Shown here: piece after piece, positions 5,729 to 61,768 of the stretch
Position numbering within the stretch: the stretch's first letter is position 1
Layout: each line of letters opens with the position of its first letter
Assembly (NCBI GenBank): GCA_018223105.1
Contig: JAAEYY010000004.1
Location: 1 to 64,000 of the forward strand
DNA from: a bacterium
GTDB taxonomy: Bacteria > Bacteroidota > Bacteroidia > NS11-12g > UBA9320
Reading direction: 5' to 3'
Length of the DNA stretch: 64,000 bases
Made by a program: the position numbers and the translations under genes
Notes under the pieces: generated by a model
Told to the model about the DNA's origin: nothing
Seen by the model: the letters and a program-made list of their open reading frames with translations, nothing else
Database searches by the model: none

Positions 5729-5731
5729 TAT

Positions 5732-6996: not shown

Positions 6997-7010
6997 ATAA
7001 AGACAATATC

Positions 7011-8786: not shown

Positions 8787-9800
8787 CTAAGATCGAGTGA
8801 AGAGTCGGTTATTGAATTTTTGAATAACCCTTGCACTAAGATCGGGTTCGCTAAAACAATCTTCTGAAAGACCAATATTATATGCTGTGAAAACGGGGTA
8901 AGGAAACTCGGTAAGGGTAAAGGTGTGGTCCAAGAGGAAAATGCCTTCTGATTCAGGCTCACCCATACCTGCATAATATCTTCCAACGTATGCAAAGTAA
9001 AGAGTGGGGCGAGCAGATTTATAGCGATCTACTTCTTCTACATTGATGACCTTAAAGGCCGAGAAGCGATAGTATTTACTAAATAGTTCGGCGAGTACGT
9101 CGTTGGTCATAGTTTCGGCGCAAGCCTTGTTAACTACATATAGAGTATCGCTCTGCAGCTTACTTAATGACTCTTCCATTTGAGCGCGTTCATCGTTGAG
9201 AGTGCCTGAACCACCAATGGTGTAATAGAGTCCAAATTTTACAATATTTGGTCGTGCATCAATGTATTCAAGCTCTAATCTAGAAAGAGTTTGTATGCTA
9301 TAAGAGGTGTTGAGTTTTAGTCCCGGTGCCACTTGTATTCCCGCTCCAATTTCAAATCCTACATCAATAATATTGTCCAGTCCTTTCACTTGACCGGGAT
9401 ACACTAATCCGGTTTTACTTATAATCGCTTCGGTAACATTATTGTAGGATGGCCCCACATGTGCAAAGAGATCCAGACCTTTTACCGGTACAACATCATA
9501 TTGAAATCCCAACATGAGCTCAAAACTTCCAACACTCACGTTTACGGTAGGTATTTCGCTGTAGTAGAAAATTCGATTGTATTGAATTCTGCTGGATAGG
9601 TTCCAAGGAGAATCGTCTAACCTCAGTCCGAAATTTAGCCCAAATCCATACCCGGGCAAAGCGGAGAAACGGGTTTGGTTGCTTCCTACTTGAGGAAGGG
9701 TGAGGTTTGCTCCAACGCCGTAGTAAAAATCATCGCTGATTTGAGCTTTAGAGGGTGCAAAGCAGAAAAGGAACAATAAGAGCCCGACAATTTTTTTCAT
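8787..9800 (-). CDS. Outer-membrane beta-barrel protein
   Basis: 337 residues from the ATG at 9800, which opens a signal peptide (MKKIVGLLLFLFCFAPSKAQ); the frame extends upstream but without secretion features. Residues 20-205 alternate hydrophobic and polar strands with glycines (YYGVGANLTLPQVG, GYGFGLNFGLRL), as in the porin-like OMP_b-brl family. The C-terminal 130 residues look soluble and may face the periplasm or surface. No specific substrate can be read. It is convergent with the fad operon with no gap between stops, so the two messages must overlap at the 3' ends. Confidence 0.7.
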   Translation of the reverse strand: MKKIVGLLLFLFCFAPSKAQISDDFYYGVGANLTLPQVGSNQTRFSALPGYGFGLNFGLRLDDSPWNLSSRIQYNRIFYYSEIPTVNVSVGSFELMLGFQYDVVPVKGLDLFAHVGPSYNNVTEAIISKTGLVYPGQVKGLDNIIDVGFEIGAGIQVAPGLKLNTSYSIQTLSRLELEYIDARPNIVKFGLYYTIGGSGTLNDERAQMEESLSKLQSDTLYVVNKACAETMTNDVLAELFSKYYRFSAFKVINVEEVDRYKSARPTLYFAYVGRYYAGMGEPESEGIFLLDHTFTLTEFPYPVFTAYNIGLSEDCFSEPDLSARVIQKFNNRLFTRS

Positions 9801-9914
9801 TCTCTGCTTCAAAGGTAATTTAAGATTACTACATACTAGTGTGCGCTTTGCCACTGTCAGATTTGATCTTATAAACAAACTTGGATTTGCTAGGCTCGAG
9901 ACTAAACAGTTCCT

Positions 9915-9922
9915 TATTTTTG
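9915..9922 (+). promoter_or_regulatory. Probable anmK promoter -7 element
   Basis: TATTTTTG followed by CGCC matches TAnnTTTG. The nearest TTTG upstream (9886-9889) is 25 bases away, longer than the usual 19-21, so the -33 box is weak. The leader to the anmK ATG would be about 105 bases. Confidence 0.4.
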
Positions 9923-10029
9923 CGCCCTATTTTACCGGCTGAAGACTTTTAAGCATGCTCATCGAAAATTATAGTGGATGGGATATGCCATATTACCTTT
10001 GGCTGCCATAACTAAGAAATCTATACATT

Positions 10030-11121
10030 ATGACAACATATAATATAATTGGGGTAATGTCGGGAACATCAATGGATGGACTTGATATTGCTCATGTGAG
10101 CTTAACAGAGCAGGAACCGGGGAAGTGGGATTACAAGATTAATAAGGCGGTAACTATACCGTATGGTGATAAGTGGAGATTGAGATTGTCGAAGTTGAGA
10201 CACCAAAATTCATTGATTTTTTATAAGACCGATCGTTATTACGGTCAGTTTATCGGGGAGAATATCCGCAACTTCATGGAAGAGCATAACCTAGAGGCAG
10301 ATTTGATTGCATCTCATGGCCATACTGTATTCCATCAGCCGGAGAATAATCTTACTGTTCAGGTGGGTGATGGTAATTCAATTTACGCTCAAACCGGAGT
10401 TCCAACGGTAACTAATTTTCGCGCATTAGATGTAGTGAGAGGCGGCGAAGGAGCGCCATTAGTTGCATTGGCGGATCATTATTTATTTAGTGAGTTTGAT
10501 ATGTGCCTCAACTTGGGTGGTTTTGCCAATATTTCGGCAAATATCAGCGGTGTGCGAATCGCGTATGATATTTCACCTTGTAATATTGTTCTAAACAGAA
10601 TTGCCAGAGAATTTGATCAGGAATATGACGAAGATGGAGCGATTGCAGAGCGCGGACAAATCGATTATGATTTGTTGGCTGACTTGAATGATATTCCATT
10701 TTACAGTCAGGAACCGCCAAAATCTCTAGGTCGAGAATGGATCAGCAAGAATTTCTGGTCATTTGTACGAAATTCAACTGCAAGCAAAGAGGATCGTATG
10801 AAAACCCTATGTGATCACATCGCGCAGCAAATAGGCGACAATGTTTATGATCTTGCAAGCACAGAACCTGCCGGAAAAAGAGTGTTTATTACCGGTGGTG
10901 GTGCATTTAATAAGACCTTGATTGAGCATTTGAGGAGTCATACTGAAGCAGAAATTGTTATTCCCGAAGACGATGTGGTGAATTACAAAGAAGCCTTGTC
11001 TTTTGCCCTATTGGGGATATTAAGAGTTAAAAACGAAATTAATATTTTAGCCAATGCTACCGGAGCGAGTGAAAACTCGGTTTCAGGAGCGTTATACGGC
11101 GATTTTTCAAAATTGAACTAA
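10030..11121 (+). CDS. anmK: Anhydro-N-acetylmuramic acid kinase
   Basis: 363 residues, the normal family length. The N-terminus carries the diagnostic IGVMSGTSMDGLDIA, the phosphate-binding loop of AnmK. Further family segments are ASHGHTVFHQPE, GEGAPLVALADH, NLGGFANIS and the C-terminal FITGGGAFNKTLIEHL. The enzyme uses ATP to open the anhydro ring and make MurNAc-6-phosphate, recycling cell-wall muropeptides in the cytoplasm. The next gene begins one base after its stop, so both are probably one transcript, although their pathways are not obviously linked. Confidence 0.93.
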   Translation: MTTYNIIGVMSGTSMDGLDIAHVSLTEQEPGKWDYKINKAVTIPYGDKWRLRLSKLRHQNSLIFYKTDRYYGQFIGENIRNFMEEHNLEADLIASHGHTVFHQPENNLTVQVGDGNSIYAQTGVPTVTNFRALDVVRGGEGAPLVALADHYLFSEFDMCLNLGGFANISANISGVRIAYDISPCNIVLNRIAREFDQEYDEDGAIAERGQIDYDLLADLNDIPFYSQEPPKSLGREWISKNFWSFVRNSTASKEDRMKTLCDHIAQQIGDNVYDLASTEPAGKRVFITGGGAFNKTLIEHLRSHTEAEIVIPEDDVVNYKEALSFALLGILRVKNEINILANATGASENSVSGALYGDFSKLN

Positions 11122-11122
11122 A

Positions 11123-12352
11123 GTGGAAAAGCTTTTAAAAAAATTCGAGAATAAGCAGCCAGAGATCGTTTTTGAATGGAAAGATTCAGAAACAGAGGCT
11201 GAAGGATGGGTAGTAATTAACTCATTAAGAAATGGTGCTGCAGGTGGTGGTACTCGTATGAGAAAAGGTCTTGACAAAAGAGAAGTGGAGTCATTGGCCA
11301 AAACCATGGAGATTAAATTTACGGTGGCGGGACCTCCAATAGGGGGAGCGAAATCGGGGATTAATTTCGACCCTGCAGATCCGAGAAAAGAAGGCGTTTT
11401 AAAGCGCTGGTACCATGCAGTTGCACCCTTGTTGCGCAATTATTACGGTACAGGAGGTGATTTGAACGTAGATGAAATTCACGAGGTAATTCCTATTACT
11501 GCTGAATTGGGTGTACTTCACCCACAGGAAGGAATTGTACAGGGGTATTTTAAAGATTACTCTAAAGTAGATAAACTTCAGGCAATCACCCGACTTCAAA
11601 CCGGAGTTTTACTTCCAATTGTGGATGATAGATTTACTCCTGATGTACATAAACGATACACCATTGCCGATATGATTACCGGTTGGGGTGTTGCTGAAGC
11701 TGTGCGTCACTACTACGAGATCTGGGGTGGCATGATGCAGAATAAGCGTGCTATTATTCAAGGATGGGGAAATGTGGCAGCAGCTGCAGCCTTTTATCTG
11801 GCTAAGAACGGAGTACATATCACCGGAATTATTGATCGAGACGGTGGATTGATAAAGAAGGAAGGATTTACCGTTGAAGAAATTATTGAGCTATTTGTAA
11901 GTCGAGATGGCAATAAATTGAGTCATCCTGATATGATGAGTTTCGATTATGTAAATGCTCAAATCTGGGATTTAGGCGCTGAAATCTTTATTCCTGGCGC
12001 AGCTTCAAGACTGGTTACCAAAGAACAGGTCGACAGCCTGATAGAAGGTGGAGTTGAAGTAGTAAGCTGCGGAGCAAATGTTCCTTTTGCCGATGAAGAA
12101 ATCTTTATGGGTCCAATCTCTATGTATGCCGATGCAAACATGGCGGTTATCCCGGATTTCATTGCAAACTGTGGTATGGCAAGAACCTTCGGATACTTGA
12201 TGAGCAAGGAAGGTCATGTTGAGGACGTACAAATCCTGAAAGATGCCACCGAAACCATTAGAAACCAAATGATGAGATTACATCAGTTTAATCCTCGTCA
12301 GACCGGTTTAAGCAGAAAAGCACTCGAAATGAGTCTTACTGATTTGGTTTAA
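11123..12352 (+). CDS. Glu/Leu/Phe/Val dehydrogenase family enzyme
   Basis: 409 residues from a GTG one base after anmK. The glycine-rich catalytic loop PPIGGAKSGINFDP includes the lysine that binds the substrate carboxylate, followed by YYGTGGDLNVDE. The C-terminal NAD(P) domain has QGWGNVAAAAAFYLA and GIIDRDGG. The family oxidatively deaminates glutamate or branched-chain amino acids. The substrate cannot be set from sequence alone: the divergent N-terminal half and 409-residue length differ from classical 450-residue GdhA and fit an amino-acid dehydrogenase common in Bacteroidota. A 10-bp hairpin after the stop may end transcription. Confidence 0.85.
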   Translation: MEKLLKKFENKQPEIVFEWKDSETEAEGWVVINSLRNGAAGGGTRMRKGLDKREVESLAKTMEIKFTVAGPPIGGAKSGINFDPADPRKEGVLKRWYHAVAPLLRNYYGTGGDLNVDEIHEVIPITAELGVLHPQEGIVQGYFKDYSKVDKLQAITRLQTGVLLPIVDDRFTPDVHKRYTIADMITGWGVAEAVRHYYEIWGGMMQNKRAIIQGWGNVAAAAAFYLAKNGVHITGIIDRDGGLIKKEGFTVEEIIELFVSRDGNKLSHPDMMSFDYVNAQIWDLGAEIFIPGAASRLVTKEQVDSLIEGGVEVVSCGANVPFADEEIFMGPISMYADANMAVIPDFIANCGMARTFGYLMSKEGHVEDVQILKDATETIRNQMMRLHQFNPRQTGLSRKALEMSLTDLV

Positions 12353-12374
12353 TCATTTCAGATTAAAATACACA

Positions 12375-12410
12375 GATTGGGCAGGAGAAGAAAATTCGTT
12401 CTGCCCAATC
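12375..12410 (+). terminator. Perfect 10-bp hairpin before uvrB
   Basis: GATTGGGCAG (12375-12384) pairs with CTGCCCAATC (12401-12410) around a 16-base loop. It follows the dehydrogenase stop but has no T-run, and its right arm overlaps the spacer of the uvrB promoter. It may be a terminator, an operator or both. Confidence 0.5.
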
Positions 12411-12417
12411 ATACTTC

Positions 12418-12425
12418 TATATTTG
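12418..12425 (+). promoter_or_regulatory. uvrB promoter -7 element
   Basis: TATATTTG, an exact TAnnTTTG match, four bases before the uvrB ATG. A partial -33 box TTCG lies at 12395-12398, 19 bases upstream. The transcript would be nearly leaderless. Confidence 0.6.
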
Positions 12426-12429
12426 CCGG

Positions 12430-14436
12430 ATGCCGTTTAAACTCCATTCTCCATTCAAACCAACGGGTGACCAACCGGAAGCAATAAAACAGCTTGTGAA
12501 TGGTATCGAGGATGGTCAACCGGCACAAACGCTCCTCGGTGTTACGGGTTCCGGTAAAACCTTTACCATGGCCAATGTGATTGAGAAGGTTCAAAAGCCC
12601 ACCTTGATCATCAGCCATAACAAAACCTTGGTAGCTCAACTCTATGGAGAGTTTAAGCACTTCTTTCCGGAAAATTCAGTGCAGTATTTTGTCTCCTATT
12701 ACGATTATTATCAGCCGGAGGCGTTTATACCCACCACCAATACATACATCGAGAAGGACCTCAATATCAATGAAGAGATTGAAAAAATGAGGTTACAAAC
12801 CACTTCGGCATTGTTAAGTGGAAGAAGAGATGTGATCGTGGTGGCTTCAGTTTCCTGTATTTATGGTGCGGGTAATCCCAATGATTACGAAGGCTCTATT
12901 ATTCGGATTGAAAAAGGGCAGAAAATAGCGAGGAATGCATTTTTATATTCTTTGGTTGAGAGTCTTTACTCAAGAACAACTGCTGAATTTAAACGAGGAA
13001 CCTTTAGGGTAAAAGGGGATACGGTAGATATCTATTTGGCCTATGATGATGTTGCGGTTAGGGTGAATTTTTTCGGAAACGAAATAGAAGATATTAAAAC
13101 CATAAATCCTGATTCCGGGCAAACGCTTGAAAAGATGGACCATGTTGCCATATTCCCAGCGAATTTATTCGTGACACCGAAGGATAGATTGCATCATGCG
13201 ATACGCGAGATACAGGATGATATGGTGGCTCAAGTGAGTTACTTTAAAGACATCCAGAAATTCCTTGAAGCGAAAAGATTGCAAGAACGCACTGAGTTTG
13301 ACATGGAAATGATGCGGGAGCTGGGGTACTGTAATGGTATTGAGAATTACAGTCGATATATGGATGGAAGAGAGCCCGGACAGCGGCCTTTTTGCTTGAT
13401 CGATTATTTCCCGGATGACTATATGATCATTATTGATGAGAGTCATGTAACCATCCCACAATTAAGGGCGATGTATGCCGGTGACCGATCTAGAAAGGTG
13501 AACTTGGTTGAATACGGTTTCAGGTTGCCTGCAGCGCTCGATAACCGACCATTGAAGTTTGAGGAGTTTCAGAGCATGGTAAATCAGGTGGTTTACGTGA
13601 GTGCAACTCCGGCAGATTATGAAATTGAAGAAAGTGAGGGAGTAGTTGTAGAGCAGGTAATTAGACCTACGGGCTTGTTAGACCCTGTGATAGAAGTAAA
13701 ACCATGCACGAACCAAGTGGATGATTTACTGGAGCAGATAGAAGAAAGAGTGAAGATGGGTGATCGGGTTTTGGTGACCACCTTAACCAAAAGAATGGCA
13801 GAGGAGTTGGATAAATATCTGAGAAATCTGGGCATATCGGCGACTTACATTCACTCAGAAGTTAAGACCTTGGATCGCGTTGAAATTTTGGAGCGATTAA
13901 GAAAAGGTTCTATCGATGTACTTGTAGGTGTAAATTTGCTGAGAGAAGGATTAGATTTACCTGAAGTATCTTTGGTGGCGATTTTAGATGCTGACAAAGA
14001 AGGCTTTTTAAGATCTGAACGTTCTTTAGTTCAAACCATTGGAAGGGCAGCGAGAAATGTTCGGGGGAAAGTGATTATGTATGCTGATAAGATGACGGAT
14101 AGTATGCAGAAAACCATTGATGAGACGAACAGAAGAAGAAGTCTGCAGATCGAGTATAACGAGAAACACGGTATTACTCCTCAGACCATTATTAGAGATC
14201 AAACCTCTGTATTTAAAAGCAGGGAGAATCTGGAATATGGAATTGAGAAGGAAGCGGCTATTGCGGCAGATCCTGTAGTAGAGTTTATGGATGAAAAAGC
14301 CTTGAAGAAGGCCATTGAGAACTCGAAAGCAAGTATGTTGAAGGCAGCGAAGGAAATGGATTTCATGGAAGCGGCCCGCTTACGAGATGAAATGACTCGA
14401 TTAGAAGAGAAATTAAAAGACATTAAAGAAAAATGA
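12430..14436 (+). CDS. uvrB: Excinuclease ABC subunit B
   Basis: 668 residues, full length. Walker A is GVTGSGKT (residues 37-44). The DNA-inserting beta-hairpin region is seen as SYYDYYQPEAFIPTTNTYIE, the DEAD-like box as IIDESHVT, and helicase motifs V and VI in VGVNLLREGLDLPEVSLVA and QTIGRAARN. The UVR domain that binds UvrC is at the end. UvrB verifies DNA damage handed over by UvrA and positions UvrC in nucleotide excision repair. The stop overlaps the next ATG (ATGA at 14433-14436), so a lipoprotein gene is translationally coupled. Confidence 0.97.
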   Translation: MPFKLHSPFKPTGDQPEAIKQLVNGIEDGQPAQTLLGVTGSGKTFTMANVIEKVQKPTLIISHNKTLVAQLYGEFKHFFPENSVQYFVSYYDYYQPEAFIPTTNTYIEKDLNINEEIEKMRLQTTSALLSGRRDVIVVASVSCIYGAGNPNDYEGSIIRIEKGQKIARNAFLYSLVESLYSRTTAEFKRGTFRVKGDTVDIYLAYDDVAVRVNFFGNEIEDIKTINPDSGQTLEKMDHVAIFPANLFVTPKDRLHHAIREIQDDMVAQVSYFKDIQKFLEAKRLQERTEFDMEMMRELGYCNGIENYSRYMDGREPGQRPFCLIDYFPDDYMIIIDESHVTIPQLRAMYAGDRSRKVNLVEYGFRLPAALDNRPLKFEEFQSMVNQVVYVSATPADYEIEESEGVVVEQVIRPTGLLDPVIEVKPCTNQVDDLLEQIEERVKMGDRVLVTTLTKRMAEELDKYLRNLGISATYIHSEVKTLDRVEILERLRKGSIDVLVGVNLLREGLDLPEVSLVAILDADKEGFLRSERSLVQTIGRAARNVRGKVIMYADKMTDSMQKTIDETNRRRSLQIEYNEKHGITPQTIIRDQTSVFKSRENLEYGIEKEAAIAADPVVEFMDEKALKKAIENSKASMLKAAKEMDFMEAARLRDEMTRLEEKLKDIKEK

Positions 14437-50235: not shown

Positions 50236-51174
50236 TTAAGTTCTAATCCTCAAGTATTTCATGATTTCTATTAAATGATTTATAACTTTATTCATTCCAT
50301 CTTTAAGGATATAGATATTTTTCCTAAAGTCTTCTCTATACCAGTTTGGATATACTGTTTTATTAGCATAGATCGTAATATTGGACTTGTAGTAACTCCA
50401 ATAGACGTCAATGCCATGAATACAATTCATGGCATTTTTTCGCCAAAAAATATCATACAATTGCTCCAACTCTTCCTCCTTAATTTTTGGTTTAAGGCTT
50501 ACACGCCTAATATTTTCATCAAGCTCATTATTTTCACTTCCGAATTCTATATCAACACTTAATTTTTCTAAATAAGGGTCACAACTAAGCCATACATAAT
50601 TGTTGTTCTCAAATAACTCAAACTTTTTATTCTCAAAGACCTCATTTACTATTTCACTCAGGTGTAAGTAGTTGTCCTTCTTCGGTTTCAATAAATTGAA
50701 TCCAAATGTTTTTAAATCCTGTTGCTTTTGACTTTTTTTCTCAATTTGTGCCGTTTGGATTATTGCTGAAGCTTCTTCAAGTGCATCATAATAAAGGTTG
50801 TCATCTGAGTGCCAGCCGTTTTTAGAGAGAAGTACTCCCATTTCTCGATTTTCCTTTTCTGTTGGCCCATAAAGGTTCATAGACCCTATTATCATTTGAT
50901 TTTCATTGAAGTAACATTTTGCGTGTACGTTAGAATGATTCAAGATAGTCAGGTGATCAAGCTCATATAGCTCTTGTCGTTGTTTATGATCCATTGAGTT
51001 TTCTCGATACACTAACATTATTTCTTTCCCATTTTTACCGGCTTCGATTATTTCACCTTTCAGTAGTGGTGAAACTTTGATAAACGGAACTATCAACACG
51101 ATTTCTGACTCTGCGTTTTTAATTATTTCAGCAATCGCTGCAACTGAATTATCTCTATTTAGAAATTTGGCCAT
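50236..51174 (-). CDS. Phospholipase D-like domain protein
   Basis: 312 residues. A PLD-like fold covers about residues 8-130, with one HKD-type motif (HAKCYFNENQMIIGSMNL, His84 and Lys86). PLD nucleases need two such motifs, so this protein would act as a homodimer. The C-terminal 180 residues show no recognised domain. Similar single-HKD proteins are nucleases or partners in defence systems, and this one borders a defence island, but its target is unknown. It is on the strand opposite to its neighbours. Confidence 0.7.
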   Translation of the reverse strand: MAKFLNRDNSVAAIAEIIKNAESEIVLIVPFIKVSPLLKGEIIEAGKNGKEIMLVYRENSMDHKQRQELYELDHLTILNHSNVHAKCYFNENQMIIGSMNLYGPTEKENREMGVLLSKNGWHSDDNLYYDALEEASAIIQTAQIEKKSQKQQDLKTFGFNLLKPKKDNYLHLSEIVNEVFENKKFELFENNNYVWLSCDPYLEKLSVDIEFGSENNELDENIRRVSLKPKIKEEELEQLYDIFWRKNAMNCIHGIDVYWSYYKSNITIYANKTVYPNWYREDFRKNIYILKDGMNKVINHLIEIMKYLRIRT

Positions 51175-51333: not shown

Positions 51334-52815
51334 ATGAGTTTAGTTCAATTAACCAAGTCACGAATTACCAGAGGTATACAATGCCCTAAATCTCTGTGGC
51401 TATACAAGCACAGTCCTGAACTTCGTGAAGTTGACGATTCTTTGCAAAGACGGTTTGATACTGGTACAAATGTTGGGATTCTAGCCCAACAACTTTACCC
51501 GAATGGTATAGATGCGAGTGAAGGTTTCAAGTACCCTTGGGTTCCATCAGCTGAAAGTACCACAGAACTTATTGCCAAAGGGCAAAGCGTGATTTATGAA
51601 GCTACATTTATTGCTAATCAGGTTCTGGTTGCGGTAGATATTTTGGTTAAGAATGAAGATGGCTGGCATGCTTATGAGGTTAAAAGTACCAACGATTTAA
51701 AAGAGCAGCACATCCCTGATGCGGCAATTCAGTACTATGTAATGCAGCAATATGGCCTAGAACTCAAAAGCATGAATATCATCACTTTCAATAGAGACTA
51801 CGTTCGAAGGGGAGCGCTAGATATTCAGAGTTTATTTAAAGTTCACGAGATTACTGAGGAAGTTCAGGAAATGGAAGACAGCCTGCCTGATATTATTTCG
51901 GATTTAATGGAGGTACAGCAATCGGATACTTGTCCTTCGGTAGAAATTGGAACCCATTGCAGCAATCCCTATTCCTGCGATTTCATGGGACACTGCTGGA
52001 AAGAGGTACCGGAATACTCTGTTTTTAACTTGACACGTGCGGGTTCTAAAGCCTGGGATTTGTATGAGATGGGAATTGAAAAAATTGAAGATATTCCGGA
52101 GGAATTTCCTTTATCTGATGCGCAAGCCATCCAAAGAGATGCTGAGTTAATGGGTAAAGAGTTCATTAATGAAGAGGGTATCCAACGATTTCTTGATCAG
52201 CTTGTTTACCCCATTTACCATTTCGATTTTGAAACCATCATGCCGGCTGTTCCCATGTTTGACCAGAGCAGGCCCTACCAGCAAATACCTTTTCAATATT
52301 CCTTACATATTGAGCAGAAAGATGGAAGTGTGGAGCACAGGGAATTTTTAGCGGAATCCGATGGCACGGATCCAAGACCAAAACTAATTCAAAACATGCT
52401 GGCAGACTTAGGGGCAGGAGTAGAAGGAACTATACTTGCATATAGCAGCGGTTTTGAAAAAGGAAGAATTAAAGAACTGGCCCGGGATTTTCCTGAATTT
52501 GAAACAGATTTAATTTCCCTTATTGAACGAATCCAAGATCTCGCTATCCCTTTCAGCAAGAAATATTACTACACCAAAGAAATGCAGGGAAGCTACAGCA
52601 TTAAAGCGGTATTACCTGCCCTCTGTCCGGACCTCTCCTACTCCGACCTCGAGATCCAAGAAGGCGGCACGGCCAGTGACACTTTTTTGGCCATGATTCA
52701 AGGAACTTTTGAAGGAGATATAGACAAAACAAGAAAAGCGCTTTTGGAATATTGCAAGATGGATACGAGAGCGATGGTGGAGGTGTTGGGGAGGTTGAAA
52801 CGGCAAGTATTATGA
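51334..52815 (+). CDS. DUF2779 nuclease (Cas4-like plus DnaQ-like domains)
   Basis: 493 residues. The N-terminal half resembles Cas4/RecB nucleases: Cys17 in GIQCPKSLWLY, Asp102 (VDILV), Glu115-x-Lys117 (YEVKST), and Cys200, Cys209, Cys215 and Cys221 that could complete an iron-sulfur cluster. The C-terminal half is DUF2779, with an exonuclease-like FDFET (Asp298, Glu300) and a late EYCKMDTRAM that fits the final Asp of a DEDD-type nuclease. The protein is therefore a likely two-nuclease DNA-processing enzyme. It heads a four-gene operon. Confidence 0.75.
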   Translation: MSLVQLTKSRITRGIQCPKSLWLYKHSPELREVDDSLQRRFDTGTNVGILAQQLYPNGIDASEGFKYPWVPSAESTTELIAKGQSVIYEATFIANQVLVAVDILVKNEDGWHAYEVKSTNDLKEQHIPDAAIQYYVMQQYGLELKSMNIITFNRDYVRRGALDIQSLFKVHEITEEVQEMEDSLPDIISDLMEVQQSDTCPSVEIGTHCSNPYSCDFMGHCWKEVPEYSVFNLTRAGSKAWDLYEMGIEKIEDIPEEFPLSDAQAIQRDAELMGKEFINEEGIQRFLDQLVYPIYHFDFETIMPAVPMFDQSRPYQQIPFQYSLHIEQKDGSVEHREFLAESDGTDPRPKLIQNMLADLGAGVEGTILAYSSGFEKGRIKELARDFPEFETDLISLIERIQDLAIPFSKKYYYTKEMQGSYSIKAVLPALCPDLSYSDLEIQEGGTASDTFLAMIQGTFEGDIDKTRKALLEYCKMDTRAMVEVLGRLKRQVL

Positions 52816-52818
52816 AAT

Positions 52819-53565
52819 ATGAGTGAAATAGATAAAAAATTGACGAAACTTTACGATTTTCTGGAAGAAAATAGAAAGTACAACCATCAGGTCCAATACA
52901 ACTATTATAAAGCTTACATAGGTGCTTATTCCGAGCCCATTGAACGAACCTTGCACCTTCTTTATCACGTTACAAACACTCAATCTCAGCCCCGGATACA
53001 AAATGTTGCTAAATTTTATAGGAAGATTTTGGGCCAAGGTGGATCATTAGATTCAATGCAAGAATTCATTCTAACTTTAAATCCAAACGAAGAAATATTT
53101 AACTTGACTACTCTTTTTAAGAATATGACTAGTGAAGATAGTTGGGGCCCTAAGACCTCTTCATTATTTGTAAAATCGGTGTATCAACTGCATTGTGGTT
53201 CTTATCCAAAAGAGTTTGAATTTTGGCAAGATGTGCCACAACAGTTATCGGATGAGAATCAACTCTACTTGCCGGTTGATACAGTAATAATTGAGCTATT
53301 TGAACGAATAACGAATGGGGCTATATCAGACTTTTATAGTATCAATGAGGTTATCACAAGTTGCTCTCAAAACGGTGTTGAAGTTTGGGATGATTTATGG
53401 TTTTGGGGATATATAAATCAGAAAGGATCTGGTAAAAACAGAAGTTTGGAATGGAATCTAGATAAGTATTGGGCTAATCAATTCACTGATAAGGACCCCG
53501 CTACAATTAATGAAATTGAATTACTATCCAAACAGTTTAGATCAATAATACTAGGTAATGGCTGA
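52819..53565 (+). CDS. HhH-GPD DNA glycosylase-like protein
   Basis: 248 residues. No family assigned with certainty. Residues 109-116 (WGPKTSSL) and 150-155 (YLPVDT) have the spacing of the helix-hairpin-helix and catalytic aspartate of HhH-GPD base-excision glycosylases (compare the hOGG1 GTK and PVD sites), so Lys112 would be the lyase lysine and Asp154 the catalytic aspartate. It starts four bases after the DUF2779 gene and overlaps the next by eight. An alternative is a helical defence protein with chance similarity. Confidence 0.45.
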   Translation: MSEIDKKLTKLYDFLEENRKYNHQVQYNYYKAYIGAYSEPIERTLHLLYHVTNTQSQPRIQNVAKFYRKILGQGGSLDSMQEFILTLNPNEEIFNLTTLFKNMTSEDSWGPKTSSLFVKSVYQLHCGSYPKEFEFWQDVPQQLSDENQLYLPVDTVIIELFERITNGAISDFYSINEVITSCSQNGVEVWDDLWFWGYINQKGSGKNRSLEWNLDKYWANQFTDKDPATINEIELLSKQFRSIILGNG

Positions 53566-54076
53566 GAAAACCTTGAATCAAATCCTGACAGAGCTCACTT
53601 TAAGGGAAGATGAGCAATTAAGAGCCCTTACAGGAAAAGGAATATTCTTTATTCCTGAGCTTGCCTTTGCTTATTTGTGTGGGAAGGCGCTTTTTTCAAA
53701 AAATGAGATATCCAAAGAATACATTTGGGTAAGAGAACGCACATATCCGGAGTATGGCATTGCAGATTTAGTCTTGGAACCAATAGATCAATCAGTTCAT
53801 AAAGAAATAGTGCTTGAATTTAAAATGGATGTGGCTATTGATTCGTACATATCTGATATCATAAAGCTGCAAAGACTCAGTGAATCTTATCACAGATATC
53901 TCATTGCTCTCAAATTTCTGTTCAGTGAACAAATTGAAGACTACAAGGAATCACTCCGGTCTAAGGTAATTTTAGAATGGAGTGCCACTATTGTGGCACA
54001 AAAGGAATTTCAAACAATTCACCCAGCATATGCAACACCAGGAGTAGGCTTGCTTAATATCATTAAAGTTAACTAG
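53558..54076 (+). CDS. PD-(D/E)XK-like nuclease protein (first)
   Basis: 172 residues. The nuclease core pattern is visible: Glu34 (PELAFAYL), Asp70 (YGIADLVLEP) and Glu87-x-Lys89 (VLEFKMD), a full E...D...ExK set. The protein has nearly the minimal fold length, so it is likely a small restriction-type endonuclease or a scaffold for one. It overlaps the upstream gene and is followed one base later by a second protein of the same type, which suggests a heteromeric complex. Confidence 0.6.
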   Translation: MAEKTLNQILTELTLREDEQLRALTGKGIFFIPELAFAYLCGKALFSKNEISKEYIWVRERTYPEYGIADLVLEPIDQSVHKEIVLEFKMDVAIDSYISDIIKLQRLSESYHRYLIALKFLFSEQIEDYKESLRSKVILEWSATIVAQKEFQTIHPAYATPGVGLLNIIKVN

Positions 54077-54077
54077 C

Positions 54078-54719
54078 ATGACCGCAAGTGAAATTACAAA
54101 AGCTATGGAATCGCTCTCAAAGAGGCGACCTATTTTCCATTCAGAAGCCGATTTTCAATTTGAACTGGCTTGGGAGTTAAAATCTATTAATCCGGAGCTT
54201 GAACTTCGAATGGAAAAGCCGTATGATATAAATGAAAGCGAAAGATGGTACTTGGATATCCTGATCATGGATGGCCAGAGTCGAATTGGCATTGAGCTGA
54301 AATACAAAACCCGGGTAATTCCACAAGCTCAACTTTCTTCTTTAGGCAATCTAGAATCATTTCGACTTACCAACCATGCTGCTACCAGCCTTGGACGGTA
54401 TGATTTTCTGAAGGACATTGAACGCATTGAATATTTAATTGAGAATGAAGAACTGGATTCTGGATTTTGCATATTTCTTTCAAACGACAGGTCTTACTGG
54501 ACAGGAAACCCCAAACACAGCACATTGGGACCCAACTTCTACATTAATCCAGGAATGACCAAGTCAGGAAAAATAGATTGGGTAAAGCCCAAAGAAAGTA
54601 GTGTTGGTAAAGGTAGAATGAAACCGATAATGCTATCGGGTCATTACTGTATGCAATGGTTCAACTATGAGGAACTGCAGCCGATATTCAGTTATAATTT
54701 GGTTGAAATAACTAAGTAA
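54078..54719 (+). CDS. PD-(D/E)XK-like nuclease protein (second)
   Basis: 213 residues. The core residues are Glu23 (HSEADFQFELAWEL), Asp60 (WYLDILIM) and Glu73-x-Lys75 (GIELKYKTR), again the PD-(D/E)XK arrangement. It has the same gene order and spacing logic as the preceding nuclease. It closes the operon that starts with DUF2779 at 51334. No sequence specificity can be read. Confidence 0.65.
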   Translation: MTASEITKAMESLSKRRPIFHSEADFQFELAWELKSINPELELRMEKPYDINESERWYLDILIMDGQSRIGIELKYKTRVIPQAQLSSLGNLESFRLTNHAATSLGRYDFLKDIERIEYLIENEELDSGFCIFLSNDRSYWTGNPKHSTLGPNFYINPGMTKSGKIDWVKPKESSVGKGRMKPIMLSGHYCMQWFNYEELQPIFSYNLVEITK

Positions 54720-54826: not shown

Positions 54827-55789
54827 ATGCACAAAAATAACTTGCACTCCATCGCCAAAATCGATTCCGGAAAATCCTTTCGGTCTAAGCCGGAATTCGT
54901 TTACGGTTATGGTGTGGGTCTTGTTCAAATGAAAGACGTTTCACCATCAGGAGTTTCCAGCAATTTAATGAAAATTGACCACAACGAAGCGAACCCCGAG
55001 CAGTTACTGCAGGATGGGGACATCCTGTTTGTTGCCAAAGGGAATAACAACTACGCAGTTACCTTTCGGTCTTCGGATCCTGCCCCTGCCATTGCGGCTT
55101 CATTCTTCTTTGTGATTCGTCCAGATAAGAATCAGGTTCATCCTGAATATCTCACATGGTACATAAACTCATCCCCGGCACAACAATATTTTGATCAGCA
55201 CAGGATGGGTGCTACTGTTGGAAATATTCGAAAACGGGTATTGGAAGAACTTGAAATTCCACTCCCGGATCTGCAACAGCAGAGTAGGATAGAAACTATT
55301 TATGGTTTGTGGGAGCTTGAAAAGAAGAACACTTTAAGTCTCCTGAAAGCAAAAGAGACCCTTTACAAAAACCTTTTAAAAGAACTATCTATGAGCAGAA
55401 CAGTGGAACGACAAACAGACAATGAATACATGAACTGGTGTGACATCTGGGTTCACAGCAAAATGTACCCTGCAGAAATCGAATTGATTGAAAATATAGT
55501 TAGCGATGAAGGATTGACTACTAACAAGATCTATTGCACATTTTTTCACATTGAAACTACTACACGAACTTACAAGAAAGATGATGGAAGCGTATTGCAC
55601 AAGCCAGAACTCAGTGGCTGGCAATACATTGAGTTAAAAAATGTCAGACATTGGAATAACCCCAAAATTCCACAGAAGGAGAAGGCAGAAAAGTATCTAA
55701 AACGTATAGATCATGAAATGGTTAAACGAATTACCCTTTATGACAATGCGACCAAAAACATAATGTTTCAAAAAGAGAACGTACTATGA
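54827..55789 (+). CDS. Single-TRD specificity-like subunit with extra C-terminal domain
   Basis: 320 residues. Residues 1-190 look like one half of an HsdS subunit: one target-recognition domain (LLQDGDILFVAKGNN through GNIRKRVLEELEIPLPDLQQQSRI), then a helical spacer LKAKETLYKNLLKEL. A normal HsdS has two such halves. The remaining 130 residues (from about SMSRTVERQTDNEYMNW) have no match I recognise. It overlaps hsdM by four bases (ATGA). It may set or alter recognition by dimerising, or act as an accessory subunit. Confidence 0.65.
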   Translation: MHKNNLHSIAKIDSGKSFRSKPEFVYGYGVGLVQMKDVSPSGVSSNLMKIDHNEANPEQLLQDGDILFVAKGNNNYAVTFRSSDPAPAIAASFFFVIRPDKNQVHPEYLTWYINSSPAQQYFDQHRMGATVGNIRKRVLEELEIPLPDLQQQSRIETIYGLWELEKKNTLSLLKAKETLYKNLLKELSMSRTVERQTDNEYMNWCDIWVHSKMYPAEIELIENIVSDEGLTTNKIYCTFFHIETTTRTYKKDDGSVLHKPELSGWQYIELKNVRHWNNPKIPQKEKAEKYLKRIDHEMVKRITLYDNATKNIMFQKENVL

Positions 55790-57330
55790 CAAGCGCTAAA
55801 GCAAAACCAACACAAGACGAAATAAACGCGGCCCTCTGGGCAGCCTGTGACAGCTTCCGTGGATCCATCGATTCACAGGGATATAAAGACTATATCCTGG
55901 CATTTCTCTTCTTTAAATACCTGAGCGATAAGTACAGGGACAAGTATGAGGAGTTCAAAGACCAGTACGGTGATGATGAGGAGATTATCAAACGAAAAAT
56001 GAGCCGCGAGCCTTTTGTGCTACAGGACGACTGCACTTTTGAGTATGTTGTACTAAACAAGAATCATGATAACCTGGGCCAGTTCCTGAATAAGATCTTT
56101 GAGAAAATAGAGGACGATAACAAGAAGAAGCTGGAAGGGGTGTTTGGCGACCTCGATTTCAACTCCAGTTCTAAGTTGGGAGATACCAAAGACCGGAACC
56201 GAAGATTGAAAAACCTCATTGAGGATTTCGACAAACCAAAGCTAGATTTTCGCCCATCGGTGATAGGTACCGAGGACATTATAGGTAATGCCTATATGTA
56301 CCTTATTGAACGTTTTGCCGAAGGTGCCGGGAAGAAAGGCGGAGAATTTTTTACACCACATGAGGTATCTGTTCTGCTAGCTAAACTGATGGCACCGGAA
56401 GCAGGTGCACGGATCTATGATCCTACCTGTGGTTCCGGTTCATTATTGATTACCGTTGCAGAAGAGGTGCCATTCAAAGCCGGAACCCACATCCGCAACT
56501 GTTCCCTTTATGGACAGGAAAGCAATGGTGGTACCTGGTCTCTGGCCAAAATGAACATGTTTTTGCACGAGATGGATGCAGCCCAGATTGAATGGGGTGA
56601 TACCATCAATAACCCAAAGCTGATTGAAGGCGACCACCTGATGAAGTTTGATGTAGTGGTGGCTAATCCACCTTTTTCTCTTGCCAAATGGGGAGCTGAA
56701 CATGCGGCAGACGACATCCACAAACGTTTTATGCGCGGTGTGCCTCCCAAAACCAAGGGCGACTATGCATTTATCCTGCACATGATAGATTCTGCCGTAG
56801 AAGGTAGTGGTAAAGTGGGTGTGGTGGTACCACACGGCGTTTTGTTCCGCGGAAGTTCAGAAAAAACTATCCGGGAAGCACTGATCAGAGAAAACTTGTT
56901 GGAGGCAGTCATTGGTCTGCCTGCCAACCTGTTCTTTGGCACCGGGATTCCGGCAGCCATCCTTGTTTTCAACAAAGGAAAGAAGCATAAGGATGTGCTT
57001 TTCATTGACGCCAGCAAGGAGTTTCAAAGTGGAAAGAAACAGAATAAGATGCGGGAAGGGGATATCAAGAAGATTGTAGACACGTACAAAGATTTCATAG
57101 CCATGGCAGCCAATTGGGAAGATGTAGCAAAGTTTGCACACAAAGCAAGCTATGAGGAAATTGAAAGCAATGGCTTTAACCTGAATATACCGCGATATGT
57201 GGACACCTTTGAGGCAGAAGAGGAAGTGGATCTGAATGCAGTGAAGGAAGAGATTGAGACACTAGAGAATAACCTTTCCAAAGTAAAGGCTGAGATCAAG
57301 AATTATTTACAGGAATTGGGGTTGAACTAA
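55786..57330 (+). CDS. hsdM: Type I restriction-modification methyltransferase subunit M
   Basis: 514 residues. The N-terminal HsdM_N helical domain (about residues 8-150; AACDSFRGSIDSQGYKDYIL) precedes the N6-adenine methyltransferase domain. Motifs are FFTPHEVSVLLAKLM, the SAM site DPTCGSGSLLI, and catalytic NPPF in VVANPPFSLAKWG. The enzyme methylates adenine within the site chosen by HsdS. Its start overlaps the single-TRD protein and its stop shares a base with hsdS, so translation is coupled. Confidence 0.95.
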   Translation: MTSAKAKPTQDEINAALWAACDSFRGSIDSQGYKDYILAFLFFKYLSDKYRDKYEEFKDQYGDDEEIIKRKMSREPFVLQDDCTFEYVVLNKNHDNLGQFLNKIFEKIEDDNKKKLEGVFGDLDFNSSSKLGDTKDRNRRLKNLIEDFDKPKLDFRPSVIGTEDIIGNAYMYLIERFAEGAGKKGGEFFTPHEVSVLLAKLMAPEAGARIYDPTCGSGSLLITVAEEVPFKAGTHIRNCSLYGQESNGGTWSLAKMNMFLHEMDAAQIEWGDTINNPKLIEGDHLMKFDVVVANPPFSLAKWGAEHAADDIHKRFMRGVPPKTKGDYAFILHMIDSAVEGSGKVGVVVPHGVLFRGSSEKTIREALIRENLLEAVIGLPANLFFGTGIPAAILVFNKGKKHKDVLFIDASKEFQSGKKQNKMREGDIKKIVDTYKDFIAMAANWEDVAKFAHKASYEEIESNGFNLNIPRYVDTFEAEEEVDLNAVKEEIETLENNLSKVKAEIKNYLQELGLN

Positions 57331-58589
57331 TGAGCAGGCTGAACAAAATAGTCCCTGATGGATGGACCTCAAAGAGGTTTAGTGAAGTTTTTGAGTTCCT
57401 TTCAACAGCAACATTCTCTCGGGATGAACTTTCTATTGAAAGCCGAGGGATTGGGGTGCACAATGTTCATTATGGAGACATTCATTCCTCATTTTCTTTT
57501 CCAATTCTGGATTGTAATAAAGAGCAACTTCCAGAAATTATAAAGCAAGAAGTAGATCAGACTAAATTACAATATCTACAGGATGGAGACCTGATAATAG
57601 CAGATGCAAGTGAAGACTATGAAGGTGTTGGATCTTCCGTTGAAATTGAGAATGTAAATGGTAAGAAAATTACGGCAGGCCTACACACCTTTGCTGTCAG
57701 GGATAAATCCCGCATTACAGCTCCGGGATATAGGAGCTATTTGTTCAAGCATCCATGGGTAAGCAATGAACTCAAGAAGATTGCAACGGGATCGAAGGTT
57801 TTTGGTATTTCCAAGACCAACCTGGCAAATCTGGAAATAGTATTACCTACCCTTCCTGAGCAACAAAAGATCGCCCGGATACTCCGCACCTGGGATAAAC
57901 TCATAGAACAACAAACCAAACTCATTGCCGCCAAAGAGCGGTTTAAGAAGGGTCTGATGCAGAAGTTGCTGAGTGGTGAGTTGAGGTTTCCGGGGTTTGA
58001 GGGGGAGTGGGAGGAAGTCCAAATTAGAAAGATTGGATATGAGAAGCCTGCAGTCATAGAACCTGGAGATTCCCTTTATAACTACTATAGCATACCAGCG
58101 TGGGAGGAAGGAAAGCCTTTAGTTGTTAACGGTGAAAAGATAAAAAGTTCCAAAATTGTTGTCGGTCCAGATACAATCCTGTTCGGCAAACTCAATCCTA
58201 GGGTTTGGAAAGTGTGGAAAGTTGAAGTTAGAGATAATGGTTATGTTAATGTTGCCTCAACAGAATTTTTGCCTATTACTCCAGATAAATCAAGCTTTGA
58301 TGTAGAGTTTGTTTTTCATCTTCTCAATAGCCATGTCATTAAGAATGAGGTCAATCGAATTATTGGTGGAAGTACAGGATCGCATCAAAGAGTTAACCCT
58401 CAGGATTTTTATCAGATCCGAGTTCTCATTCCAACGTTGGACGAACAGAAAAAGATTGCAAGATTATTTACAAAAATTGATCAGGAATTAGACTCCCTTA
58501 ACAATGAATTAGGATTTTTCATGAACCAAAAGGAGGGTCTAATGCAGCAATTGTTAACAGGTAAATTAAGAGTGCGGTCAACCAATTAA
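57330..58589 (+). CDS. hsdS: Type I restriction-modification specificity subunit S
   Basis: 419 residues, normal length. Two target-recognition domains (about residues 5-180 and 225-375) alternate with helical repeats: LPTLPEQQKIARILRTWDKL after the first and IPTLDEQKKIARLFTKIDQE after the second. The paired helices set the spacing between the two half-sites. It follows hsdM directly and is followed 12 bases later by the Argonaute gene. Confidence 0.93.
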   Translation: MSRLNKIVPDGWTSKRFSEVFEFLSTATFSRDELSIESRGIGVHNVHYGDIHSSFSFPILDCNKEQLPEIIKQEVDQTKLQYLQDGDLIIADASEDYEGVGSSVEIENVNGKKITAGLHTFAVRDKSRITAPGYRSYLFKHPWVSNELKKIATGSKVFGISKTNLANLEIVLPTLPEQQKIARILRTWDKLIEQQTKLIAAKERFKKGLMQKLLSGELRFPGFEGEWEEVQIRKIGYEKPAVIEPGDSLYNYYSIPAWEEGKPLVVNGEKIKSSKIVVGPDTILFGKLNPRVWKVWKVEVRDNGYVNVASTEFLPITPDKSSFDVEFVFHLLNSHVIKNEVNRIIGGSTGSHQRVNPQDFYQIRVLIPTLDEQKKIARLFTKIDQELDSLNNELGFFMNQKEGLMQQLLTGKLRVRSTN

Positions 58590-58601
58590 AAAGAACTCTA
58601 A

Positions 58602-60896
58602 ATGGAAACAAACATTTACCCAATAGAGATAGAATTTGAAGAGTACCAAATAAGTCGTCTTCAATATTCAGAAGAAAAGCTCAAAGAGCTCAGAGAACAA
58701 CACAACAATACACATTCATTTTTTAGAAATGGTGATTATATCTATATCTCTAATATGGATGGTGATGATTCTGTTCGATTAGGCGAAACATTCACTGCTT
58801 CTACTTATAGTGATGACAAAATTACAGCTTCCCTCATCAAACATATTTTTTTCAGAACATTTAAAGAAAGGTTTAGTCATATTGTCCCGGTTAGCTTTTA
58901 CCCATTCAGAATTTATTCAACACGAGAAAGCGACGATTTAGTAAGAGCATTATTACCTGACCATCTTAAAGATGTAATATCCTATAAGAAACTTATTGAG
59001 ATACAGCTTCGATTGTTAGAAAAAGACGGACAACCGTACTTCGGATTGGTGATACGAACCAACAGGAAATGGCTCCTGAACAAGAACTGCAAAGAGCTTA
59101 GACAAGAAGGATTTGATTTAATCGGATGCGAAGTCCTGCACTCTGAACACTTACTAGGACTTGAAGGGATATTGGCTCCGAATGAAGAATTCATAGGTAA
59201 GATTAAATCAGTAACTGGAGGTTTGGCTGTAGTTGCGACAAATTTTGGAGACCAAACTATCCCTTTGATTGAGCTTTCACTTATAAAAACCACAGGAAAT
59301 ATAAAAGCGTACCTCACGTTTGCAACAACTGAACAAGAATGTGATAGGATATTTAGTGAAATTGAGAAAGGGAAAGCTGAATACTTGAACCCAAAAAAAG
59401 AATTCAAAGAAATCGCATCCATAGCAAGAATGTTATCAACCGGCAGGGGTTCTGACAATCAACTTCTGCACTTAAACAAAGATGGGTTTTGTTTTAAAAT
59501 TAGTACAACACCTCTTTCTTCACAGCAGAGTTCATTTGAGTTGAAGACTCCCACTTTTGTCTTTGATCCAGCCGCAAATAGAACAGAAGCCATTTATCCT
59601 GATAGGGGACTAAGCAATTTTGGACCTTATGATAGTTTAAATTTTGACACTAAAAGCCCAAATGTTTTAGCCATCTGCGCAAAAGATAACCGTGGAAGTT
59701 TCTCGACTTTCATGGCTAATTTGGTAGATGGATTACCCAACTCAAAGTATTTTAAAAAGGGATTGAAAAAGAAATATGATCTTAACGATATTCATTTAGA
59801 AATTCGAGAGGTTAACAGCACAACCTACGAAGAGTACAACAGCATTGTTAGTGACATAGATCGAAAGCCTGATATGGCGATCATCGAAATACCAGGTAAT
59901 TTCAAGAAGCTACCTGATAACCAAAATCCATATTATAGACTCAAAGCACAACTTCTTACCTTGGAAATACCGGTCCAATTTGTTCTACAAGAAAAGGTAA
60001 GAAATCACGATGAGTACCTCTTGAATTCAATTGCTCTTCAGATTTATGCCAAGCTCGGTGGTACGCCATGGGTACTAACATCAAGCCAATCAGTAGATCG
60101 TGAGATTATTATTGGTATCGGTCATAGCGTAATTCGATCAAACGCATTCAGTGGTAATGAACAAAGCCGGGTGGTGGGTATCTCAACATTCTTTTCCAGC
60201 GATGGACAATACCTGCTATCAAATAAAGCGAAAGAAGTACCATATGAAGAATACTTTGAGGAGCTATTGACAAACCTAAAAGATTCTTTTGCGCGCCTTC
60301 AAGAAGTACAAGGATGGAAAGATGGTGATACGATCCGACTTATCTTCCACATATTCAAACCAATTAAGAATGTTGAGTTTGATGTTGTAAGTGAACTTAT
60401 ACGTCAGTACTCCCAATATAGAATTCAGTTTGCATTTGTAACAATAAGCAAGAAGCATCCTTACATGCTGTTTGATTCATCTCAAACCGGTACTCAAGGA
60501 TACCGTAGACATATCAAGGGGCAATTTGTTCCTCAAAGGAAAAGTAACCTTATCTTGGATTCTTCAACCTGTCTTGTTCAAATGTTAGGTCCTCAACAAA
60601 TTAAAACTAATAGACATGGAGCCAGTGCCCCAATACTAATCAGGATTCGATTACCACAGGGAAATTACAATGCAGAATCGATAGAAGAACTGCTGTTTAC
60701 CGACATCCAATACATTACCCAACAGATCTATTCATTTTCGTATTTGTCTTGGCGAGGATTTCTACCAGGAGAGACTCCGGCAACAATGCTGTACTCGGAC
60801 CTCATTTCACAACTCCTTGGGAAACTAAGAAAAATTGAAGGCTGGCAAGCCAATGTGTTGAATTTTAACTTAAAAAGAAAGAAATGGTTTCTTTAA
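58602..60896 (+). CDS. Prokaryotic Argonaute, probably catalytically inactive
   Basis: 764 residues. RGLSNFGPYD (residues 335-344) marks the start of the L2-MID region, and NSIALQIYAKLGGTPW (residues 475-490) is a hallmark of the MID-PIWI junction. Candidate 5'-end-binding residues Tyr444, Lys448, Gln459 and Lys484 are kept. Of the PIWI DEDX tetrad, the first Asp is Gly at IIIGIGHS (about residue 506), and the strand that normally supplies the third Asp reads FHIFKPIKN (583 onward), so slicing is unlikely. Residues 1-330 are weakly conserved; PAZ is not clear. It likely binds a guide and senses invading nucleic acid. The membrane gene downstream overlaps it by 13 bases. Confidence 0.82.
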   Translation: METNIYPIEIEFEEYQISRLQYSEEKLKELREQHNNTHSFFRNGDYIYISNMDGDDSVRLGETFTASTYSDDKITASLIKHIFFRTFKERFSHIVPVSFYPFRIYSTRESDDLVRALLPDHLKDVISYKKLIEIQLRLLEKDGQPYFGLVIRTNRKWLLNKNCKELRQEGFDLIGCEVLHSEHLLGLEGILAPNEEFIGKIKSVTGGLAVVATNFGDQTIPLIELSLIKTTGNIKAYLTFATTEQECDRIFSEIEKGKAEYLNPKKEFKEIASIARMLSTGRGSDNQLLHLNKDGFCFKISTTPLSSQQSSFELKTPTFVFDPAANRTEAIYPDRGLSNFGPYDSLNFDTKSPNVLAICAKDNRGSFSTFMANLVDGLPNSKYFKKGLKKKYDLNDIHLEIREVNSTTYEEYNSIVSDIDRKPDMAIIEIPGNFKKLPDNQNPYYRLKAQLLTLEIPVQFVLQEKVRNHDEYLLNSIALQIYAKLGGTPWVLTSSQSVDREIIIGIGHSVIRSNAFSGNEQSRVVGISTFFSSDGQYLLSNKAKEVPYEEYFEELLTNLKDSFARLQEVQGWKDGDTIRLIFHIFKPIKNVEFDVVSELIRQYSQYRIQFAFVTISKKHPYMLFDSSQTGTQGYRRHIKGQFVPQRKSNLILDSSTCLVQMLGPQQIKTNRHGASAPILIRIRLPQGNYNAESIEELLFTDIQYITQQIYSFSYLSWRGFLPGETPATMLYSDLISQLLGKLRKIEGWQANVLNFNLKRKKWFL

Positions 60897-61768
60897 TCGA
60901 TCACATAGGATACCTCAAAGAGTATGAGGATAAGCCCAAAATCAAATCATTTATCGAACTGATAAATGGAAGAACAATTGTGGCAACATCTGATCCAACT
61001 AATGAAATGGATAAGATTTATTCTAAAATGATAATAGCTCTTTCTTCGAACTCAAAAAAAGATTTCATATCAGCATATGAGGATTTTACAAGAAGAAAGC
61101 CCTCTGAAGAAAGTCCATGGCTTTATAATGATTTTCTTGTTTTTGTGATTCTGATAGGAATCGTGAAGTATTTCTTAAAACGGAATTGGATAGAAGGAGT
61201 ACTTTCATTGCGAAGTAATTCAAACACTGATTTTCAGGCAATTAACCAAACCCTGAAAAATGTATTGTCTGGAAATCTAACTAACACTGATAATTTGCAT
61301 GAAATAGTAATTGTCTATCTGGATATATTGAATCAACCACAGCTTTCTCGAGAATTATTGGACACTACTTATCTGAAGTTATCTAATCAATCAGATCTTT
61401 TAGAAAAACACAATGACTTCTTGGCCGTTATGTCCCTGCGTGCTTATGATGTCATTATTACCACTAAAGACACTCCTGATGCTATTGAAGTAAAGAACCT
61501 GAGAAATTTCAAGGTTGACTTTGAAAAGCGGGTATCGATTATAGGAGATGTCATTTACTTTTCGATTCTTACGACCCTAGTAGTCCTCATATTCATTTTC
61601 TATACACGGTCACAAGATTTCAAAGATTTTATTAACGACTTAGGAGCTGTTTTCTCCATTATTGGGATTGCATTATTAACAGGGATTCAGCTTGTTAGAA
61701 AATGGATAAAAAGACTTATTAAAGCCCTTTTCGGTTTTAGCAGAAATTTCTCGAGAAAGAAAGACTAA
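60884..61768 (+). CDS. Two-helix membrane protein, probable Argonaute effector
   Basis: 294 residues, no family recognised. Residues 1-215 are mostly helical and soluble; a hydrophobic stretch at 83-98 (FLVFVILIGIVKYF) might be buried or membrane-associated. Two clear membrane helices, about 218-240 and 251-271, lie near the C-terminus, followed by a basic tail (KRLIKALFGFSRNFSRKK). The start lies inside the Argonaute gene, so the proteins are translationally coupled. By analogy to inactive pAgo systems with separate membrane or nuclease effectors, I infer that it damages or depolarises the membrane when the Argonaute senses a target. That role is unproven. Confidence 0.65.
   Translation: MVSLIDHIGYLKEYEDKPKIKSFIELINGRTIVATSDPTNEMDKIYSKMIIALSSNSKKDFISAYEDFTRRKPSEESPWLYNDFLVFVILIGIVKYFLKRNWIEGVLSLRSNSNTDFQAINQTLKNVLSGNLTNTDNLHEIVIVYLDILNQPQLSRELLDTTYLKLSNQSDLLEKHNDFLAVMSLRAYDVIITTKDTPDAIEVKNLRNFKVDFEKRVSIIGDVIYFSILTTLVVLIFIFYTRSQDFKDFINDLGAVFSIIGIALLTGIQLVRKWIKRLIKALFGFSRNFSRKKD

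Follow-up and report, generated by a model that had tools for sequence, protein, structure and literature searches.

The row of four genes examined here lies at positions 51334–54719 of a 64,000-nucleotide stretch of Bacteroidota DNA (GenBank assembly GCA_018223105.1; contig JAAEYY010000004.1, positions 1 to 64,000), referred to below as the window, and its second gene was found to encode a member of a real and previously unnamed protein family. The reading we favour, at a probability of about 0.5, is that the row was brought together by chance and that this gene specifies an accessory HhH-GPD glycosylase with apurinic/apyrimidinic (AP) lyase activity, which is probably anti-phage and coupled to a nuclease.

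The four open reading frames (ORFs) are arranged head to tail on the forward strand and encode a DUF2779 protein of 493 amino acids (aa; 51334–52815), the predicted HhH-GPD-like DNA glycosylase/AP lyase of 248 aa (52819–53565), a probable PD-(D/E)XK nuclease of 172 aa (53558–54076) and a PD-(D/E)XK nuclease of 213 aa (54078–54719). An initial annotation of the sequence had placed abutting or overlapping genes at these positions, and this arrangement was confirmed, with gaps of 3, −8 and 1 bases, the start of the 172-aa gene overlapping the glycosylase gene by 8 bases. Sites found in a simple promoter scan were no more numerous than expected by chance, and PADLOC and NCBIfam provided no name for three of the four proteins. 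The row is probably a chance-assembled run of independent defence-island genes that are probably transcribed together.

The 248-aa protein resembles HhH-GPD glycosylases

Pfam, NCBIfam and PADLOC contained no model that matched the 248-aa protein. Relatives were detected at 60 loci in one scan of genome contigs, mostly in Bacteroidota and also in Chlorobiota, Ignavibacteriota, Pseudomonadota, Thermodesulfobacteriota and Verrucomicrobiota, and 40 of them, sharing 29–43% identity with the window protein, were aligned with it. Residues G110, K112, T113, P152, V153 and D154 were invariant in the resulting 41-sequence alignment, far beyond chance, and correspond to the GPKT/PVD pair of the initial annotation (G110-P-K112-T113 and P152-V153-D154). 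W190 to G197, which form the family signature WDDLWFWG, are also invariant, together with Q201, N213 and W218, and a further family-specific element, NTQSQP, was found. No Pfam HhH-GPD, Ogg-HhH or AGOG match was present among the families listed for the 41 members, and the only match to an HHH motif was a single weak one (E 0.048); the missing Pfam match lowers the likelihood of membership in a named family, not that of the claim at the level of fold.

The AlphaFold2 model of the 248-aa protein was all helical, with a predicted local distance difference test score (pLDDT) of 93.9 and a predicted template modelling score (pTM) of 0.91. When the model was compared with the PDB using Foldseek, HhH-GPD glycosylases dominated the upper ranks, though at weak E-values, with AGOG (1xqo) first, followed by TmOGG (3n0u) and MutY, and EndoIII, Mag1, OGG1 and AlkA were found at lower ranks. 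Profile comparison with hhalign gave a score of 28.9 against Nth-type proteins, where the maximum of 100 column-shuffled controls was 21.0, and paired GWGxKTAALF with GVGRKTA and LPVD with VDTHV of the Nth-type proteins, while the score against Ogg-HhH proteins was borderline (21.1, with 1 of 100 shuffles equally high). Sequence searches of the PDB, using single proteins and profiles, returned nothing useful.

K140 and D172 are both needed for catalysis in Pae-AGOG (PMC9638937), and K112 in the hairpin and D154 in the PVD motif fit a predicted catalytic pair equivalent to these residues. The model, the structure ranking, the profile comparison and the invariant Lys and Asp support the proposal, made in the initial annotation, of an HhH-GPD-like glycosylase, and it is very likely that the 248-aa protein is a glycosylase with AP lyase ability, in line with a bifunctional enzyme of the OGG/AGOG type.

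The glycosylase family is patchily distributed and has nuclease neighbours

The glycosylase family was present in 6 of 396 genomes of the phylum, and a search at the DNA level did not find it in 37 relatives. Copies are carried by a mobile element of the Flavobacteriaceae together with AbiE-like genes, by a plasmid and by a prophage, and the gene also lies beside type I restriction-modification (RM), CD-NTase, TIR and WYL genes. Of 50 close same-strand neighbours of the glycosylase gene, 8 encode nucleases, compared with none among 30 ORFs farther away (Fisher p 0.019), and these nucleases belong to seven families (DUF2779, NOV_C, NucS, PLD, AddA, NERD and GIY-YIG). On the Flavobacteriaceae mobile element, a NOV_C-type PD-(D/E)XK gene is located 0–9 bases upstream of the glycosylase gene, and a second, separate case of this pairing occurs among type I RM genes. 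Elsewhere, a gene for a NucS-like endonuclease lies 16 bases downstream of the glycosylase gene, a PLD gene overlaps it by 17 bases and a gene for an AddA-like helicase-nuclease overlaps it by 16 bases.

The Flavobacteriaceae element (most of loci L021–L047, e.g. L038 around 9500–12900) is near-identical across many genera, and carries a row made up of the NOV_C-type nuclease gene, the glycosylase gene and often AbiE-like genes, with genes for single-stranded DNA-binding protein, mobilisation and metal resistance nearby. The prophage copy (L116; coordinates 4959–5741) is a lone relative, encoded on the other strand from the tail genes, and is possibly a defence moron. In Mesonia (L043; coordinates 6953–11627), an operon-like row encodes a DUF2779 protein, a HAD protein, an esterase, the glycosylase and a WYL regulator, and in Flavobacterium tructae (L056; coordinates 9992–10716) the glycosylase relative is split into two frames and is apparently broken.

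The other three proteins of the row

The 493-aa protein matched Pfam DUF2779 (PF11074; E 2e-46, 157.8 bits against a curated cut-off of 23.3), Pfam Cas4 (E 7.7e-6, 26.5 bits against a cut-off of 22.7) and the Cas4 model of PADLOC (5e-8). Its N-terminal Cas4/RecB-like PD-(D/E)XK domain contains D102 and E115-V-K117, with Cys17, Cys209, Cys215 and Cys221 as in 4Fe-4S Cas4, and its C-terminal DnaQ-like exonuclease domain contains D298-F-E300 and D477. DUF2779 is classed among the 3'-5' exonucleases, with DUF83 as a partner domain (PMC3985635). Judged by its domain matches and catalytic residues, the protein is a full DUF2779 member with both catalytic motif sets, and the earlier description of a two-nuclease protein with Cas4-like and DnaQ-like motifs was upheld. 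It resembles other two-domain Cas4-DnaQ nucleases, but the window copy adjoins a glycosylase gene, whereas DUF2779 is mostly found without such a neighbour. The closest relative of the window copy, at 64% identity, is a second DUF2779 protein of the same genome. In the second locus (L107, G000:C45:110000-128000; coordinates 7224–12593), a divergent WYL regulator gene and a PDDEXK_4 nuclease gene adjoin the DUF2779 gene, and there are also genes for a DnaB-like ATPase and for a further protein that is possibly of the PD-(D/E)XK type.

In the 213-aa protein, S22-E23, D60 and E73-L-K75 were conserved in alignments with its relatives. The AlphaFold2 model was of moderate overall quality (pLDDT 61.8) and its C-terminal part is unreliable, but the core (pLDDT about 75–92) has the alpha-beta-beta-beta-alpha-beta topology expected of PD-(D/E)XK proteins. 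Nearly all of its leading Foldseek matches were PD-(D/E)XK enzymes (best E 0.0076), among them Can2, AddAB, Hjc, McrC, MGME1, EcoRV and Cas4, so the modelled fold and the motif identify it as a PD-(D/E)XK nuclease, as had been suggested. Relatives of this protein were found among the head genes of prophages, on small plasmids, in haloarchaea and in viral contigs. In a haloarchaeon a member of the family adjoins BREX-5 pglZ, and the haloarchaeal and prophage loci include L079 (coordinates 4983–5624), L077 (4995–5624) and L078 (4992–5621).

The 172-aa protein has one distant relative among 376 genomes of the phylum, in an unrelated gene setting, in which E34, D70 and E87-x-K89 (E87-F-K89 in the window) are kept. 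No further relatives were found in viral contigs, plasmids, phages or the 376 genomes. The E...D...ExK motif noted earlier in both small proteins is present in each, though for the 172-aa protein the accompanying PDDEXK_9 match is weak (E 0.05), and this protein is, by its motif, probably a PD-(D/E)XK nuclease.

Proposed role of the glycosylase

We infer catalysis, a substrate, co-transcription, cooperation with a nuclease and an anti-phage effect for the glycosylase along the following lines. A non-canonical base, either modified by a phage or otherwise marked, would be flipped into a pocket close to the WDDLWFWG signature, where D154 would activate K112 for attack on C1', releasing the base and forming a Schiff base. 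Beta-elimination by the glycosylase would then nick the strand, and a co-encoded nuclease, here the DUF2779 protein and/or the 172-aa protein encoded by the overlapping gene, would degrade the DNA from or across the lesion, so that incoming DNA would be destroyed, not repaired. This scheme of excision, nicking and destruction is proposed by analogy with the Brig enzymes (PMC11078745, PMC13160076) and R.PabI (PMC10273834). Excision followed by cleavage, which the initial annotation had put forward as an anti-phage logic, stands as a hypothesis for the glycosylase with one nuclease partner but not for this set of four genes. A broader version, base-excision immunity, in which a mobile HhH-GPD glycosylase/lyase family directed against non-canonical bases has repeatedly been re-paired with different nucleases (DUF2779, NOV_C, NucS-like, PLD, AddA-like, GIY-YIG and NERD) that would take the abasic site or nick as the starting point for destroying the DNA, is advanced only tentatively, with the odds somewhat against it.

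Several observations weigh against the favoured reading. The Foldseek E-values of the 248-aa model are not significant on their own (best 0.56; TM 0.43–0.50), and the family was named by no library searched. The enrichment of nucleases among its neighbours is modest, the NOV_C pairing was counted twice and the near set was Pfam-scanned in part, and defence genes cluster in general anyway. Many relatives are also solitary in ordinary chromosomal settings (L015, L017, L027, L028, L045, L048 and L054), and such copies are as compatible with repair as with defence.

With gaps of just 3, −8 and 1 bases, the row looks like a single transcript with translational coupling, and each gene encodes a nucleic-acid-processing domain or motif, as would be expected if the DUF2779 protein, the glycosylase and the two PD-(D/E)XK nucleases acted jointly as a dedicated anti-phage system. 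However, neither the 172-aa nor the 213-aa gene was found at any of the 60 glycosylase loci, most of them covered with 10 kb of flanking DNA on one or both sides, and a DNA search of 37 sampled relatives did not recover the row. For these two genes this is the outcome, genes that do not remain together, that the initial annotation had itself named as refuting its proposal. No locus examined other than the window holds more than two of the four genes together, and the 213-aa family occurs alone in prophages and plasmids while the relative of the 172-aa protein is elsewhere. The four-gene unit of the initial annotation was consequently rejected, as it is largely refuted by these neighbourhoods, and a joint system is highly unlikely. 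A smaller unit, in which the DUF2779 protein and the glycosylase form the functional system and the 172-aa and 213-aa genes are passengers, fares a little better but is still improbable. A DUF2779 gene lies within 2 kb at 3 of about 44 separate glycosylase loci, far above the approximately 0.007 loci expected by chance, because genomes of the phylum carry on average about 0.15 copies of DUF2779. In the window it is directly upstream on the same strand, as it is in Thiomicrospira (L052), which belongs to another phylum, and L043 and L055 likewise have a DUF2779 gene nearby. The window and Thiomicrospira glycosylases are sisters in the tree (support 93/87), and as both stand behind DUF2779 their branch may have kept the pairing from an early date. 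Nevertheless, 57 of the 60 glycosylase loci lack DUF2779 in the locus DNA examined, the DUF2779 proteins with a glycosylase neighbour form no clade and intermingle with those that have none, and the nearest relative of the window copy is the second DUF2779 protein of its own genome, which has no glycosylase beside it. A conserved DUF2779-glycosylase unit was therefore also rejected, as the DUF2779 tree gives no support for a single origin of the pairing.

The main rival is host repair, in which the 248-aa protein would be an accessory OGG-type enzyme that acts on 8-oxoguanine or some other oxidised base, is spread by mobile elements and plays no part in defence. The closest structures are 8-oxoguanine glycosylases, and the genome contains just two proteins of the HhH-GPD type, presumably Nth and MutY, with no Fpg/MutM and no Ogg-HhH protein found, so an 8-oxoguanine enzyme could be missing, which keeps this explanation alive. 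A copy on a Cupriavidus plasmid is near genes for DNA polymerase Y and an SOS peptidase, and the many solitary copies are in keeping with the same role. However, the absence of Fpg is weak evidence because the assembly is only 90% complete, and the presence of the family in just 6 of the 396 genomes, its carriage by a prophage and mobile elements, its tight coupling to nuclease and RM genes and its location in a defence island are less easily accommodated, making a pure repair function rather unlikely.

Anti-phage DNA glycosylases have become known only recently, among them Brig1 and Brig3, which are similar to uracil DNA glycosylases (UDGs). If the favoured reading of a nuclease-coupled, anti-phage HhH-GPD enzyme is true, the other major glycosylase fold would also have been drawn into defence, and base excision could be wired to nucleases. 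As no Pfam, NCBIfam or PADLOC model covers it, the 248-aa family is invisible to current annotation.

Relationship to known glycosylase systems

The all-helical model of the 248-aa protein resembles the fold of AGOG, OGG1 and OGG2, with AGOG and TmOGG at the top of the structure ranking at weak E-values, and the protein has a hairpin Lys and a downstream Asp at places equivalent to theirs. The spacing between these residues is 42, nearer to that of AGOG (K140–D172, 32) than to that of OGG1 (K249–D268, 19). However, the family has no detectable match to the Pfam models of these enzymes, has its own WDDLWFWG and NTQSQP elements, and is accessory, mobile and accompanied by nuclease genes.

The top matches of Brig1 are UDGs (PMC11078745), and the Brig enzymes excise a base modified by the phage (PMC11078745, PMC13160076). 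The idea of excising phage-modified bases and the setting in a defence island are common to Brig1, Brig3 and the 248-aa family, and Brig3 has an operon partner. In contrast to the UDG-like Brig proteins, the 248-aa family is predicted to have the all-helical HhH-GPD fold with a candidate lyase lysine, and its neighbours encode nucleases, not a glucosyl hydrolase. The all-helical model shows neither the UDG-like fold of the Brig proteins nor the HALFPIPE fold, and neither a UDG nor R.PabI was among its listed Foldseek matches. R.PabI restricts DNA as a glycosylase and AP lyase, and AP endonucleases promote this restriction (PMC10273834). The same chemistry is predicted for the 248-aa protein, but R.PabI has a different fold and a methyltransferase partner, whereas no cognate methyltransferase is tied to the 248-aa gene.

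The surrounding defence island

The row had been reported to lie beside a defence island, and this island is real, containing a type I RM system, a class II prokaryotic Argonaute (pAgo) with its partner, and McrBC. Its left border is formed by a divergent gene on the reverse strand (50236–51174) for a PLD-family nuclease-like protein of 312 aa (PLDc_2 1e-8; DrmC-like 1.8e-9). To the right of the row, the type I RM locus begins on the forward strand with an HsdS-like gene with a single target recognition domain (TRD; 54827–55789), followed by genes for HsdM (55786–57330) and HsdS (57330–58589), and HsdR is encoded mostly past the end of the window (contig C42:63617-66760). The class II pAgo gene (58602–60896; PADLOC pAgo_II 1e-250) and that of its partner, 'Aga_Unknown' (60884–61768; PADLOC Aga_Unknown 2e-63), both on the forward strand, are inserted between the HsdS and HsdR genes, and the single-TRD HsdS-like gene upstream of HsdM is an extra one (window positions 54827–61768 for the whole arrangement). 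Genes for an AlbA/Schlafen protein, a UvrD-type helicase, a CoiA-like protein, McrB-like and McrC proteins and an HNH protein are also found to the right. The McrB-like protein, followed by McrC (L158, coordinates 8996–13013; contig C42 about 70995–75012), has an extra N-terminal part that corresponds to a PDC-S02-like stretch in PADLOC and is perhaps an EVE-type reader.

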